Below, piece by piece: positions 1,843 through 56,094 of a DNA stretch of 64,000 nucleotides (its first letter is position 1; each line of letters begins with the position of its first letter). The translations under genes were made by a program, and so were the position numbers. Source of the stretch: Nodosilinea nodulosa PCC 7104 (GTDB lineage Bacteria; Cyanobacteriota; Cyanobacteriia; Phormidesmidales; Phormidesmidaceae); contig NZ_JH976537.1 of the NCBI RefSeq assembly GCF_000309385.1, positions 2,802,010 through 2,866,009 on the forward strand. Direction: 5' to 3'. The notes beneath the pieces are model-generated. The model was given only the letters and a program-made list of their open reading frames with translations. It was not told where the DNA came from and searched no databases.

Positions 1843-3207
1843 TCACTTCACCTTCGTCGCCCGGTTGGGGTTGTTGCGCTCCAGGTCGCGCATCGCCTTG
1901 CCCCGCCAAAAGATGCGAATCGGCGTGCCCTCAAAGCCCAGGTTCTCGCGAAACTGCCGCTCCACATAGCGGCGGTAGTTGTCTTTGAGCAGGTGGGGAT
2001 CATTCACAAATAAGGTGAAGGAGGGGGGCCTCACCGTGACCTGGGTGCCGTAGTAGATGCGGCCCTGGCGGCCCTGGCGGGTGGTGGGCGGCGTGTGCCA
2101 CTTGACCGCGTCCTCCAGCACTTCGTTGACCACTGAGGTGCTGACCCGGCGCCGGTGCTGCTCGACGGCCTGATCCACCAGCTCCAGAATTTTGGGCACC
2201 CGCTGGCCAGTCTTGGCGCTGACGAAGATGCGCTTGGCCCAATCCAAAAAATTGAGCCGGGCGGAAATTTGGTGGTCAAAGTCGTAGATGGTGTGGCTGT
2301 CTTTTTCGACGGCGTCCCACTTGTTGACGACGATGATGCAGGCGCGACCGTCTTCTTCAATGCGGCCCGCCAGCTTTTGGTCTTGCTCGGTGACGCCGTC
2401 GAGGGCGTCGATCACCAGCAGCACCACATCGGCGCGGCGAATGGCCTTAAAGGCGCGGTTAATACCAAAAAACTCTGGCCCGTACTCCACGCTTTTTTTC
2501 TTGCGAATGCCGGCGGTATCGATCAGGCGGTAGATCTGGTCGCCGTGCTGCACCCGCATGTCGATCGCATCACGGGTGGTGCCCGAAATCGGGCTGACAA
2601 TGGCGCGGGTTTCGCCCACAAAGGCATTGAGCAGGCTTGACTTGCCCACGTTAGGTCGCCCGACGATGGCAACTTTGATTTCTTCCTCGGCGGCTTCTTC
2701 GACGGTTTCGGGCAAAAACTCCACCAGGGCATCGAGCAGTTCTCCCGTGCCGCTGCCGTGGATGCCCGACACGGCGTAGGGCTCACCCAGCCCTAGCTCC
2801 CAAAACTGAGCCGCCTGCACCAGGCCGTGATCAAGGGATTCGCACTTGTTGACCGCGAGCACAATAGGTACGGACTGCTGCCGGAGCCAGGAGGCGATTT
2901 CGCGATCGGATTCGGTAGGGCCGGTTTTGCCGTCTACTACAAATACAGCCGCACTGGCTTCGGTCAGCGCCAGCTGGGCCTGTTCGCGAATATAGGGCAA
3001 AAATTCGGTGTCGTCGTCAAAAACCAGACCGCCGGTGTCGACTACCAGATAGTCGCGATCGCGCCAAAAGGCAGGCTGATAGGTGCGATCGCGCGTCACC
3101 CCCGGCTGGTCGTAGACAATCGCATCCTGGGCCCCGGCCAGGCGGTTCACCAGGGTAGATTTGCCCACATTCGGGCGTCCGATAACCGCAACAATAGGCA
3201 GTGGCAT
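1843..3207 (-). CDS. der: Ribosome biogenesis GTPase Der (EngA)
   Basis: A 454-residue protein with the two tandem GTPase domains unique to Der. The first P-loop is [14 protein letters not shown] (residues 9-22), with DTGG and NKCE downstream. The second is [14 protein letters not shown] near residue 183, with DTAGIRKK and NKWD. A C-terminal KH-like domain follows (to about residue 454), ending in a basic tail. Der acts in maturation of the 50S ribosomal subunit. Length and motifs are normal. Start ATG at 3207. Confidence 0.97.
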
Positions 3208-45641: not shown

Positions 45642-45698
45642 CATTTCATAATCGTTTCATTTTTACGATATAATACATTTCATAATCATTTCATTTTT
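45642..45698. promoter_or_regulatory. Operator-like array of four TTTCAT hexamers between mntC and mntAB
   Basis: Two 23-bp direct repeats (45642-45664 and 45676-45698) differ at one base. Each holds two TTTCAT hexamers with 11-bp spacing (starting 45644 and 45655; 45678 and 45689), and the repeats are 34 bp apart. A plus-strand TATAAT at 45669-45674 lies between them. Direct hexamers at 11-bp steps are typical of OmpR-type response regulators; ManR of that class represses mntCAB in Synechocystis. The identity of the regulator is inferred. Confidence 0.75.
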
Positions 45699-45736
45699 TG
45701 CCTTGCCCCAGCTCAGCCGGGGTTGGAGAGATTGGT

Positions 45737-46477
45737 ATGGCCCCTACTCCCTGCATCACCGTTGACCATCTAACCGTTAACTACCGAGATGTGCAGGCGC
45801 TGAGGAACATCCGCCTTACCGTGCAGCCTGGTAAGGTGGTAGGCATCTTTGGTCCCAACGGCGCGGGTAAAAGTACTCTGATTAAGGCCATGCTGGGGCT
45901 GATGCCGGTGGTGACAGGCCGGGTTTCCTACGGCGAAGGGACCCTGGCCCGCCAGCTCGATCGCGTCGCCTACGTACCCCAGCGATCGCAGATTGACTGG
46001 ACTTTTCCCGCCACCGTGTGGGATGTGGTGATGATGGGCCGGGTGAAAAAAACCGGCTGGTTCAATCGCTTTTCGGCGGTGAGTCGACGGCTAGCCACGG
46101 AGGCTCTAGAGAGAGTCGGCATGCTGGAGTTTCGCGATCGCCCCATTGGTGCCCTCTCAGGCGGGCAGCAGCAGCGGGTGTTTCTGGCCCGCGCCCTGGC
46201 CCAGCAGGCGGAGATCTTCTTTTTTGACGAACCGTTTGTCGGGGTGGATCAGAAGACCGAAGCCGTGTTGTTCAAAATTTTTCAAGAGCTGGCGGCGGCT
46301 GGCAGCATTGTCATGGTGGTCAACCACGACTTGGGCGAGTCGATTACCCACTTTGACCAGCTGATTTTGCTCAATAAGGAGTTGATTGCCGCTGGCCCCC
46401 GCGACCGGGTGCTCACCCGCGACAATATGACCCGCGCCTACGGCGGACACGTGGGCTTCTTTGGCCATGTCGCCTGA
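45737..46477 (+). CDS. mntA: Metal ABC transporter ATP-binding protein
   Basis: 247 residues from ATG 45737 with GGAGAG upstream; an earlier TTG is not needed. Walker A is GPNGAGKSTLIKAMLGL, the Q-loop is in VAYVPQRSQIDW, the signature is LSGGQQQRVFLARALAQQ, and Walker B is IFFFDEPFVG. The ATPase of a MntABC/ZnuABC-type importer. Its stop overlaps the start of the permease by 17 bp. Confidence 0.92.
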   Translation: MAPTPCITVDHLTVNYRDVQALRNIRLTVQPGKVVGIFGPNGAGKSTLIKAMLGLMPVVTGRVSYGEGTLARQLDRVAYVPQRSQIDWTFPATVWDVVMMGRVKKTGWFNRFSAVSRRLATEALERVGMLEFRDRPIGALSGGQQQRVFLARALAQQAEIFFFDEPFVGVDQKTEAVLFKIFQELAAAGSIVMVVNHDLGESITHFDQLILLNKELIAAGPRDRVLTRDNMTRAYGGHVGFFGHVA

Positions 46478-47480: not shown

Positions 47481-48062
47481 ATGGTTCAGCTCAATCAACG
47501 GTTTCAGAGCTGTGAAGACTATCTGGCCTACGACGACGGGACAAATAATCTCTATGAGTTATTCAACGGAGAACTGATCGAGGTACCGCCAGAATCTGGG
47601 TTCAACGTTGAAACAGCAAACTTCCTTTTTGCACTATTGCTGCCTATAGTAGGCCATCGTCGCCTTAGAGGACATGGCCTAGAGCTTGAGATGCGTGGTG
47701 AGCCGAGAAACCGCTATCCAGACCTCACGGTCATCTATAAAGAGCAGGTTGAGCAGCTGAATCGACGCAACACGCTACGGATTTCGATGGGGCCGCCGAT
47801 GCTGGTGGTTGAGATTGTTGGCCCAGGAAAAGTGCAGCACAACCGAGACTATATAGCCAAGCGCGGCCAGTACCAAAATTTGGGCATTCCCGAATACTGG
47901 ATTGTAGATCCGCAGACAGCTACTATTTTAGTTCTAGAACTGGGAGATGGGGTGTATTGCGAAGCGGCGATGTTTCGCGGTGAAAATTTTCTTAGTTCGC
48001 CTCAGCTAGGATCTCTAAATATAAAAGCGCAGCAAATGCTTCAAATCCCCAAGTCTGCATAA
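47481..48062 (+). CDS. Uma2-family putative endonuclease
   Basis: 193 residues, MVQLNQRFQSCEDYLAYDDG. The Uma2 core is recognisable: LYELFNGELIEVPPESG, NRYPDLTVIYKEQVE (the PD motif), MLVVEIVGPGK (E-x-V) and YQNLGIPEYWIVDPQTATIL. It belongs to the subfamily with the N-terminal F/Y-E-D-Y-L sequence. It lies at the border of the AT-rich accessory zone. Confidence 0.85.
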   Translation: MVQLNQRFQSCEDYLAYDDGTNNLYELFNGELIEVPPESGFNVETANFLFALLLPIVGHRRLRGHGLELEMRGEPRNRYPDLTVIYKEQVEQLNRRNTLRISMGPPMLVVEIVGPGKVQHNRDYIAKRGQYQNLGIPEYWIVDPQTATILVLELGDGVYCEAAMFRGENFLSSPQLGSLNIKAQQMLQIPKSA

Positions 48063-48069
48063 TGCAAAA

Positions 48070-48600
48070 TTATTCATCACAGAACGTCAAAATCTGACTT
48101 TCCCTTGCTAAATCCTCATTCAAGACTAGGACCGAAGTAGGCACCAAATCCCAAATTTTTACTGTCACTTTGAGCTTTTTCCTAAGTTCATCTTGCAACG
48201 GCGGCAACCAATCCATTTGGTGGTTTTTTATAACTAGTATTAGACGAAATTCGACTTGATCAAGATCAAGTGCTTGAAAAGGACTTGGAAGTTCGTTGCA
48301 TGTTGAGGAATGTCTTTTCAAATAAACTGCTACATAAAGATTTAGCGAATTAGAAAGCTTATCAGCGATCTCCTGAAGAAATTTGTCAAAGCCTGGACTA
48401 GTTTCAGGACGTGGAGAACTTGATTTTGCTTCAATAATCCATATTTTAGGTTTATCCCTTACGGCTAGAATCAAAAACTCCGCAATCTTTATTCCATTTT
48501 GAATAGCTAAGTAAGTTCTACTTTTTTCAATATAAAAACAGTGACCAGGCGGATAAGGGCCAAATGACATTCCAGACTCAAAAATTGGCTCGATCATCAT
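48070..48600 (-). CDS. Probable PD-(D/E)XK-like protein coupled to an AAA ATPase
   Basis: 176 residues, MMIEPIFESGMSFGPYPPGH. Residues 37-63 read IKIAEFLILAVRDKPKIWII followed by EAKSS, that is, an upstream Glu, a turn and an E-x-K on a strand, the pattern of PD-(D/E)XK nucleases. Its ATG overlaps the stop of the ATPase by 4 bp (ATGA). The sequence is distinctly AT-rich compared with its flanks. Whether it cleaves DNA or RNA is unknown; it could also be a fold-only partner. Confidence 0.6.
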   Translation of the reverse strand: MMIEPIFESGMSFGPYPPGHCFYIEKSRTYLAIQNGIKIAEFLILAVRDKPKIWIIEAKSSSPRPETSPGFDKFLQEIADKLSNSLNLYVAVYLKRHSSTCNELPSPFQALDLDQVEFRLILVIKNHQMDWLPPLQDELRKKLKVTVKIWDLVPTSVLVLNEDLARESQILTFCDE

Positions 48601-49613
48601 TCTAATGCGAGCCTCACTTCTTCCTTATATAACCTGATTGACTCATCAATAATAGGGTTATCTGGCATTCCCTCTTTCAGATTGTCTACATTCCAAGATC
48701 CATCCTTTGAAGAAAGTATTACGACAGAGAGTGGATCTTCCTTTTGAGAGATAAGAAAAAGCTTTTTAACAACGAAATAAGAATGACTTGCCATAAAAAA
48801 CTGGATACCACATTGAGCCAGTAAGCTTATAATATCCAGGAATTTTGATATTGCGACTGGATGCAGAGCTGACTCTGGTTCATCAATAAAAATTATTGAT
48901 TTTGGATCTATATATCGATTTCCTAAAAGGGTATCAAGAATAGAAATTTTCTTGATACCTTCTGCTGTTACGCCAATCGAGAATTTCTGGTTACCTTTTT
49001 TGAATTGCCAACGACTTATCTTTTCATCGTATTCAACTTTGCCATCCAAGATTTCATGTAAACTCTTGCGGGAAGCAGCAAACTCTCGATAATTATTTCC
49101 TTGTTGAGGAGGCTGGCGTAAAGCTCTTGCCAAGTCTAGATATGTGTCGTCAAAGCCAAATGTCTTATCCAACTCACGAGATCCTAGAATTACGTTGTAT
49201 AAAGAAAGTACTTCTTTTGTCGGGAAAAAAATTGAATTACTATCTCTGGGAGGAATATGATTCTCAAGAGTTTGAATAACTTTTGTTGTGTCTTTTCCAA
49301 AGTCGTAGCAAAAATCTGCACTATTAAACTCAAGTTTAAAGGAAAGAGAATCGTCTGCGCCCTTAGTAACAAGATCGCCAATTTTCTCTGTCTCAAAAGT
49401 CCAGTAAAGTTTATCAGCAAGTATTTCTCTAGCATTACGAGGTTCATTACCACGTTTGTATTCTTCCAAGGTTTTCATTGCGCTATAAAGAGCTTTGAGA
49501 AGAATAGTCTTTCCTGCTCCATTTCCGCCGATAATTAGGTTGATATTGCCTAGATTTTGACAATTGAGTTTATGGATCGGCCCAAAGTTTTTGAGTTCAA
49601 TGCTGTTGATCAT
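48597..49613 (-). CDS. AAA-family ATPase of the OLD/SMC-like class
   Basis: 338 residues. Walker A is IIGGNGAGKTILLKALYSAM (residues 27-46), Walker B is IIFIDEPESALHPVAISKFL (near 245), and FFMASHSYFVVKKL is the following switch histidine. The N-terminus MINSIELKNFGPIHKLNC is the usual strand of ABC-ATPase-like AAA_15/AAA_21 proteins. It has no TOPRIM domain, so nuclease activity must come from another protein, presumably the coupled gene downstream. Codon use and AT-richness suggest lateral transfer. Confidence 0.85.
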   Translation of the reverse strand: MINSIELKNFGPIHKLNCQNLGNINLIIGGNGAGKTILLKALYSAMKTLEEYKRGNEPRNAREILADKLYWTFETEKIGDLVTKGADDSLSFKLEFNSADFCYDFGKDTTKVIQTLENHIPPRDSNSIFFPTKEVLSLYNVILGSRELDKTFGFDDTYLDLARALRQPPQQGNNYREFAASRKSLHEILDGKVEYDEKISRWQFKKGNQKFSIGVTAEGIKKISILDTLLGNRYIDPKSIIFIDEPESALHPVAISKFLDIISLLAQCGIQFFMASHSYFVVKKLFLISQKEDPLSVVILSSKDGSWNVDNLKEGMPDNPIIDESIRLYKEEVRLALE

Positions 49614-49706
49614 CTATCGTACTCTCAAGACTTGTATTCCAAAGCTTTATTGAACGCTCATTTCACATTTTTATGATCGTCACTTATTTTTCCTTATAAT
49701 TAGATT

Positions 49707-51712: not shown

Positions 51713-51936
51713 CTATTCGAGCAGCCAGTTGAAAACAGAGCCTACTGTAAGGCTAAGCCCTTGGGCAAAGGCTGGGACAGGCAGAGATTGATCAGGCTCG
51801 TCAAAGACTTCGGGCTGCTGCTTGGGGAGATGGGTTTTGGAATGATTTGCCCGTCAAAGTATTCGCTGGCAGGCTTGGTCTCTGGCAGTTGCAGAAACTC
51901 CTCCAGGGTGATTGGCTTGGGCGGGGACTGTACCAT
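51713..51936 (-). pseudogene. Uma2 pseudogene with internal deletion
   Basis: The ATG at 51936 gives a normal Uma2 N-terminus, ITLEEFLQLPETKPASEYFD then GQIIPKP. After about 51835 the frame shifts and the DNA encodes a normal Uma2 C-terminus in another frame, QPEVFDEPDQSLPVPAFAQG then [14 protein letters not shown], stopping at 51713. The central 100 or more residues with the nuclease motif are absent. This is a dead gene made by an internal deletion. Confidence 0.8.
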
Positions 51937-55249: not shown

Positions 55250-55585
55250 CTATGCAACTTTCTCCAAGCCAGTCCCAGCCGTTCGCTGCATTGAAGTGTT
55301 AGTCTTCCAATCGAGAACGATTGCAATGATAGGTATACTCATTTGAATTGCCATATCCAACTCCAATCGAACCCAATTGGACTCAAAGTATTTAGGTGTA
55401 ATTAAAGCACAGAAGGTTTCCGACTGCTTTAAATTGCTAATTACATATTCTTGAGGATTTGGGCTTTTATTATGCAAAATATCTATGTATGGCTCTCCAA
55501 AGTTCAAGAAAAAATATTCAAAGCGTTGGAGATCTCCAATACTTAAAAAGTCATCTCTTAGGGTATAACTAATAAATATCCTCAT
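55250..55585 (-). CDS. Short TIR-domain protein
   Basis: 111 residues from ATG 55585 (a TTG one codon earlier exists). MRIFISYTLRDDFLS is the TIR strand A/box 1. SNWVRLELDMAIQMSIPIIA carries a Trp and the Glu (residue 75) at the NAD-hydrolysing position of TIR enzymes. The domain is cut short after the last strand; the tail (MQRTAGTGLEKVA) looks unrelated, so the 3' end may be truncated. ATG overlaps the stop of the membrane gene (TGATG), so the two are translationally coupled. AT-rich. Confidence 0.75.
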   Translation of the reverse strand: MRIFISYTLRDDFLSIGDLQRFEYFFLNFGEPYIDILHNKSPNPQEYVISNLKQSETFCALITPKYFESNWVRLELDMAIQMSIPIIAIVLDWKTNTSMQRTAGTGLEKVA

Positions 55586-56094
55586 CAAGATGTCTTTTTG
55601 AGAACGATTGTTGGCAGAACTCCAAAGATCTGCAATAGAGCAAGAGTAATAAAAATAGAAGTCAGCAAGTAATAAAAGACCATTGAATGATTGAATGCAG
55701 ACTGTAACAATAGGTTATCTTGTTTACTTCTTCTAGCAATTGGCATACCTATGCCATCGACAAGGTTAACAAAGCCACTTCTCTCAGCAATATTATTTGC
55801 AAGCTCTTTCATTCGCAAACGTATTTTTCTCTGCAACAAGTAGTTCTGTCCATCCAAAAACCAGAAAAAACTACTAATAGCTGCACCGATAAGGAAAAAG
55901 GAATATTCGACTCTTACATCTGGTTGAACCTGAGCTAATCCTACAACTCCTGCAACAACCGAACCAATAATCGTGGCACATAGTTTTTTGATATCATAGC
56001 AAGTTTGACTAACCTGTAAGAGAGCCGCGTGAAGCTGATTAATACTATCTCTGTCAAGCGAGTTTTGAAATTCATTTCTTTTATCTGCATTCAT
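55585..56094 (-). CDS. Three-helix membrane protein coupled to a TIR protein
   Basis: 169 residues from ATG 56094. An N-terminal amphipathic helix (1-40) precedes two close membrane helices (LCATIIGSVVAGVVGLAQV; YSFFLIGAAISSFFWFLDG), then a cytoplasmic helical part (RKIRLRMKELANNIAERSGF) and a third helix near the end (YYLLTSIFITLALLQIFGVL). The layout resembles SLATT/S-2TM-type effectors that pair with nucleotide-signalling or TIR proteins in predicted immune systems, but I cannot assign it to a named family. Confidence 0.7.
   Translation of the reverse strand: MNADKRNEFQNSLDRDSINQLHAALLQVSQTCYDIKKLCATIIGSVVAGVVGLAQVQPDVRVEYSFFLIGAAISSFFWFLDGQNYLLQRKIRLRMKELANNIAERSGFVNLVDGIGMPIARRSKQDNLLLQSAFNHSMVFYYLLTSIFITLALLQIFGVLPTIVLKKTS

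Follow-up and report, generated by a model that had tools for sequence, protein, structure and literature searches.

A cyanobacterial copy of the candidate two-gene defence system HEC-02 in Nodosilinea nodulosa PCC 7104

Gene layout and insertion site

The window analysed here (the whole stretch of 64,000 nucleotides) contains two neighbouring genes, encoding an ATPase (HEC-02A) and a small protein (HEC-02B), in an AT-rich island (Table 1). Both open reading frames are present as claimed in a preliminary description of this DNA, and the stop of the first overlaps the start of the second in an ATGA through which translation of the two genes is likely to be coupled. The same description placed the island between GC-rich flanks, with sdhA and Uma2 genes around it. 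The contrast in GC content (55 to 65% on both flanks), sdhA and one intact Uma2 gene were all found, but the second Uma2 gene, beyond sdhA at 51742-51936, is a remnant of 64 aa that scores under the Pfam cut-off. The intact Uma2 gene also occurs in genus-mates whose sdhA-Uma2 site does not carry HEC-02. Elsewhere in the GC-rich part of the window, a 169-aa open reading frame of unassigned function (55585-56094; 37% GC) is possibly another acquired gene.

Table 1. Features of the HEC-02 locus (positions in the window)
Feature	Position	Strand	Remarks
HEC-02A, ATPase gene	48597..49613	(-)	338 aa
HEC-02B, small-protein gene	48070..48600	(-)	176 aa
ATGA start/stop overlap	48597..48600	(-)	4-bp overlap, recurring in almost every relative
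AT-rich insert, from sdhA (ends 49707) to Uma2 gene (ends 48062)	48063..49706	(.)	36-38% GC
Uma2 gene, intact	47481-48062		converges on the HEC-02 pair; PADLOC candidate PDC-S03, E = 1.1e-63

The gene sdhA occurs in 25 of 28 genomes of the genus, and HEC-02 lies at the sdhA-Uma2 site in only two of the 28 (G000 and G503); G474 carries it at another place. In G524, the Uma2 gene follows sdhA by <100 bp, i.e., the site is empty, and in G527, the gap holds a different AT-rich insert. Because the site is empty in one genome and differently filled in another, the HEC-02 pair is an insert at a small variable site, and, given the alternative insert of G527, accessory genes possibly have a small hotspot in the sdhA-Uma2 gap. 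Inspection of the insertion by eye showed no target-site duplication. The G527 insert (L100:434-2431) contains a further Uma2 gene and encodes two proteins, of 278 aa and 82 aa, the latter resembling UPF0175 by eye.

Identity and predicted structure of the two proteins

The ATPase matches the PADLOC HEC-02A model PDLC04214 from end to end (E = 2.9e-161; residues 1-337 of 338 on positions 1-337 of 338 of the profile), and the small protein matches the HEC-02B model PDLC04221 (E = 8.1e-68; residues 2-171) and five further HEC-02B models of PADLOC-DB. The two models are thus matched by neighbouring genes of one operon with a 4-bp overlap and, as judged from these profile matches, the gene pair is a copy of HEC-02, a candidate system that is already catalogued and not new. 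Nothing material distinguishes it from HEC-02 as held in PADLOC-DB; it is a cyanobacterial copy outside any larger defence operon. HEC-02 reportedly originates from a preprint by Payne et al. A published article gives HEC as Hma-embedded candidate, a product of “guilt-by-embedding” work, and attributes antiviral activity to several HECs, including HEC-06 (PMC12988326). Among the papers searched, no experiment on HEC-02 was found, and none names it as a defence system.

The full Walker A and B motifs and switch histidine described earlier were located in HEC-02A as GGNGAGKT (K35), FIDEPE (D244/E245) and H277, accompanied by a sequence, TAEGIKK, resembling the ABC signature. Nearly all of these residues are invariant among relatives, and the motif FGFDDTY (residues 152-158) is invariant. 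The protein matches AAA_21 (E = 2.8e-23) and also AAA_15 in Pfam, and the fold of its AlphaFold2 model (pLDDT 87) is closest to PtuA of retron Ec78/Septu (VIA Z 18.5 over 300 residues), with the heads of Rad50/SMC proteins also near in structure comparison. Neither Pfam nor the model revealed a TOPRIM or other second domain in any of the 338 residues, the ATPase fold running throughout, which agrees with the earlier claim that the protein has no nuclease domain. On its motifs and predicted fold, HEC-02A is an OLD/Rad50/PtuA-like ABC ATPase.

HEC-02B has no match in Pfam or NCBIfam. The 44 aligned sequences share E8, S9, F13, E25, E57, A58, P63, L122, N161 and A165 without exception, whereas E41 and K59 are nearly invariant (replaced by D and R, respectively, in one relative each). 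The upstream glutamate and E-x-K pattern noticed previously correspond to E41 and E57-A-K59, which form a conserved (D/E)-X(10-20)-(D/E)-X-K motif and are spaced as in a PD-(D/E)XK site; the spacing is very similar to that of D450, D467 and K469 of FokI. In the AlphaFold2 model (pLDDT 92.4, pTM 0.90), E41 lies just ahead of the strand formed by residues 42-46, and E57-K59 closes the strand 52-59, from which a long helix follows.

The best structural matches of the HEC-02B model are mostly PD-(D/E)XK nucleases. The top matches in VIA-align were Can2 (Z 6.9), FokI (Z 6.3), Cdn1, BspD6I and BsmI, followed at lower ranks by EcoO109I, HamA, EndoMS and McrBC, with a few unrelated chains (acetyl-CoA carboxylase) mixed in; the highest Z, 6.9, is below the value of 8 above which one structural match is trusted alone. 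Foldseek returned FokI with a probability of 0.99 (E = 3.5e-3) and no match at E ≤ 0.001. A viral structure library likewise yielded no match at this threshold, and a PDB sequence search with the HEC-02B profile gave chance-level matches only. Nevertheless, HEC-02B is probably a PD-(D/E)XK-like nuclease with the putative active site E41, E57-A-K59, because many PD-(D/E)XK nuclease matches agree convincingly with an independently conserved motif.

Co-conservation, distribution and defence-gene neighbourhood

With the ATPase as query, a scan of genome contigs returned 47 loci, 46 of them real relatives; one (L067), with 26% identity over 109 residues, was dropped as spurious. In this search for the pair across genomes, the small gene is directly downstream of the ATPase gene in every real relative (46/46), with a −4 overlap in nearly all. 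The relatives belong to cyanobacteria, several proteobacterial groups, Verrucomicrobia, Lentisphaeria, Chloroflexi, Bacillota, Fibrobacter and others. The nearest is another Nodosilinea copy (L021), 93% identical in the ATPase and 81% in the partner, against which dN/dS (NG86) is 0.047 and 0.137, respectively; as judged from these ratios, both genes are under purifying selection. A chance association of the two genes is excluded because of the invariable downstream position of the small gene and the purifying selection on both. The small protein as lone query found nothing in the genome collection. Some copies have decayed, with a truncated ATPase at L011 and only a fragment at L018. In a Methylobacter copy (L049:7011-7540), the ATPase is intact and the small gene broken, a natural partial loss.

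The system is patchily distributed. The HEC-02B model is matched in 4 of 292 genomes of a phylum sample, and the protein was found in 13 of 390 genomes of a class sample; on plasmids it is rare (4 of 72,556 records). No relative of the small protein was found in PHROGs or viral contigs, and in phage records, from which the pair is essentially absent, the ATPase has only distant relatives (~30% identity). A role in DNA repair or housekeeping rather than defence would suit an ATPase fold close to Rad50, but is highly improbable given this patchiness, the AT-rich nature of the insert, the empty site in a congener and the occurrence of the pair among restriction and BREX genes.

Embedding of the pair among defence genes in other genomes is explicit. 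It lies between hsdS and hsdR of type I restriction operons at L025 and L031 (the order at L031 being hsdM, hsdS, other genes, HEC-02A, HEC-02B and hsdR), before hsdR at L066 and before the BREX genes pglZ and brxL at L037. The same scan of the 47 other proteins of the window detected no restriction or BREX genes, although few flanks were compared and a single window served as control. Its matches were Uma2 (PDC-S03), PDC-S17, an ordinary ATPase, a GTPase and a GlgB model, and Uma2 (PDC-S03) is the only other strong defence gene near the pair in the window. A “mad3” match (45698-46477) is an ordinary ABC transporter ATPase and a LeoA match (1843-3207) is a P-loop GTPase resembling Der/EngA; neither was retained. 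The view of the locus as a candidate two-gene defence module is supported by the predicted nuclease-like fold, co-conservation and the HEC-02 match, its anti-phage activity being putative.

Proposed mechanism and relation to known systems

WonAB of the Vibrio cholerae WASA-1 prophage is the nearest studied pair and, by analogy, would be the best guide to the mechanism of HEC-02. It pairs an OLD-type ABC ATPase with a PD-(D/E)xK nuclease, both of which are required for proven defence, in which infection is aborted through arrest of translation, and protection is abolished by mutation of ATPase residues or of K71 of WonB (PMC12137116). Excess WonB halts translation only with active WonA and does not degrade genomic DNA, and rRNA or tRNA has been suggested as its target (PMC12137116). 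The authors regard WonAB as part of a broader family in which an ATPase sensor works with a nuclease effector, and the HEC preprint is one of their citations for operons of this sort (PMC12137116). Both systems are two-gene operons of an OLD-type ABC ATPase followed by a small PD-(D/E)xK nuclease (predicted in HEC-02) with a catalytic lysine, and the distance from the Walker B glutamate to the H-loop histidine is ~32-33 residues in each. WonA is longer than HEC-02A between Walker A and Walker B (K34-E300 versus K35-E245), and WonB is smaller than HEC-02B (16.1 kDa versus 176 aa), the comparison being one of features and not of sequence. No WonAB model is among the PADLOC v2.0.0 matches of the pair. 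Krishnan et al. reportedly described operons of “OLD-ABC ATPase + novel REase” in 2020, which have the same ATPase-then-nuclease layout and are grouped here with WonAB as close systems.

Other systems are less similar. PD-T4-4 of Escherichia coli also combines an OLD-like ATPase with a PD-(D/E)XK nuclease, but PD-T4-4_A matches the ATPase far more weakly (E = 2.6e-17) than HEC-02A does, and the small protein does not match the PD-T4-4_B model PDLC04034 up to E = 5 in PADLOC. In Septu/retron PtuAB, the ATPase is the closest in fold, whereas PtuB is an HNH nuclease. PARIS (AriAB) likewise pairs an ATPase sensor with a small nuclease, and AriA models match the ATPase (E = 2.6e-22), but AriB is DUF4435/TOPRIM-like, and PADLOC gave no AriB match to the small protein at E values up to 5. 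With no Pfam match and a PD-(D/E)XK-like model, the partner is therefore unlike DUF4435, HNH and TOPRIM proteins, as previously supposed. OLD and Gabija differ in having a TOPRIM domain fused to the ATPase.

From the layout and motifs shared with WonAB, ATPase-gated nuclease activation and abortive infection are the best guess. It is likely that the pair, as a copy of HEC-02, acts through an ATPase that senses infection and activates the nuclease, so that infection is aborted. HEC-02A would dimerise around ATP, sense an infection cue, probably DNA or a signal from DNA metabolism, and bind and control HEC-02B, which, once activated, would cut nucleic acid and abort the infection. We infer the nuclease activity, the ATPase-nuclease complex, its ATP-dependent control and phage sensing; that the nuclease aborts infection by attacking RNA or DNA of the host would follow by analogy with WonAB.

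In a restriction-like alternative, which is rather unlikely, a Rad50-like ATPase scans foreign DNA for direct cleavage by the nuclease, and the host survives. This would accord with the Rad50/SMC-like heads of the ATPase, the presence of DNA restriction enzymes (FokI, BspD6I, BsmI and EcoO109I) among the nearest nuclease structures and the embedding in type I restriction operons. Set against these are the lack of a methyltransferase belonging to the pair and the fact that the best matches also include Can2 and Cdn1, two ancillary CRISPR nucleases whose substrates are nucleic acids of the cell. Moreover, genomic DNA is not degraded by WonB (PMC12137116).

It is improbable that the module is a classical toxin-antitoxin system, mainly self-maintaining, in which a constitutively toxic nuclease is held in check by the ATPase. 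Overlapping genes with the nuclease second would be compatible with such a system, as would the mobility and patchiness of the pair, including its presence at the sdhA-Uma2 site in only two of the 28 genus genomes. However, the full set of ABC ATPase catalytic motifs is conserved, which is needless for a simple sequestering antitoxin, and the pair is found inside restriction operons and beside BREX genes; in the WonAB analogue, the ATPase is needed for toxicity and sequestration is excluded (PMC12137116).

Abortive action by an ATPase-activated nuclease is preferred here. Rather doubtful is a more specific version, that HEC-02 is a distinct family in which the ABC ATPase reads a phage DNA signal and the PD-(D/E)XK effector cuts host RNA (tRNA/rRNA); if true, this would give an RNA-targeting role to a fold known mostly for DNA cutting. 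The locus adds an intact, isolated cyanobacterial copy to an apparently uncharacterised candidate defence system, and HEC-02 becomes directly testable, having numerous relatives and an active site that is clear in the prediction. By its likeness to WonAB, this copy would link the candidate to a proven class of ATPase-nuclease pairs.
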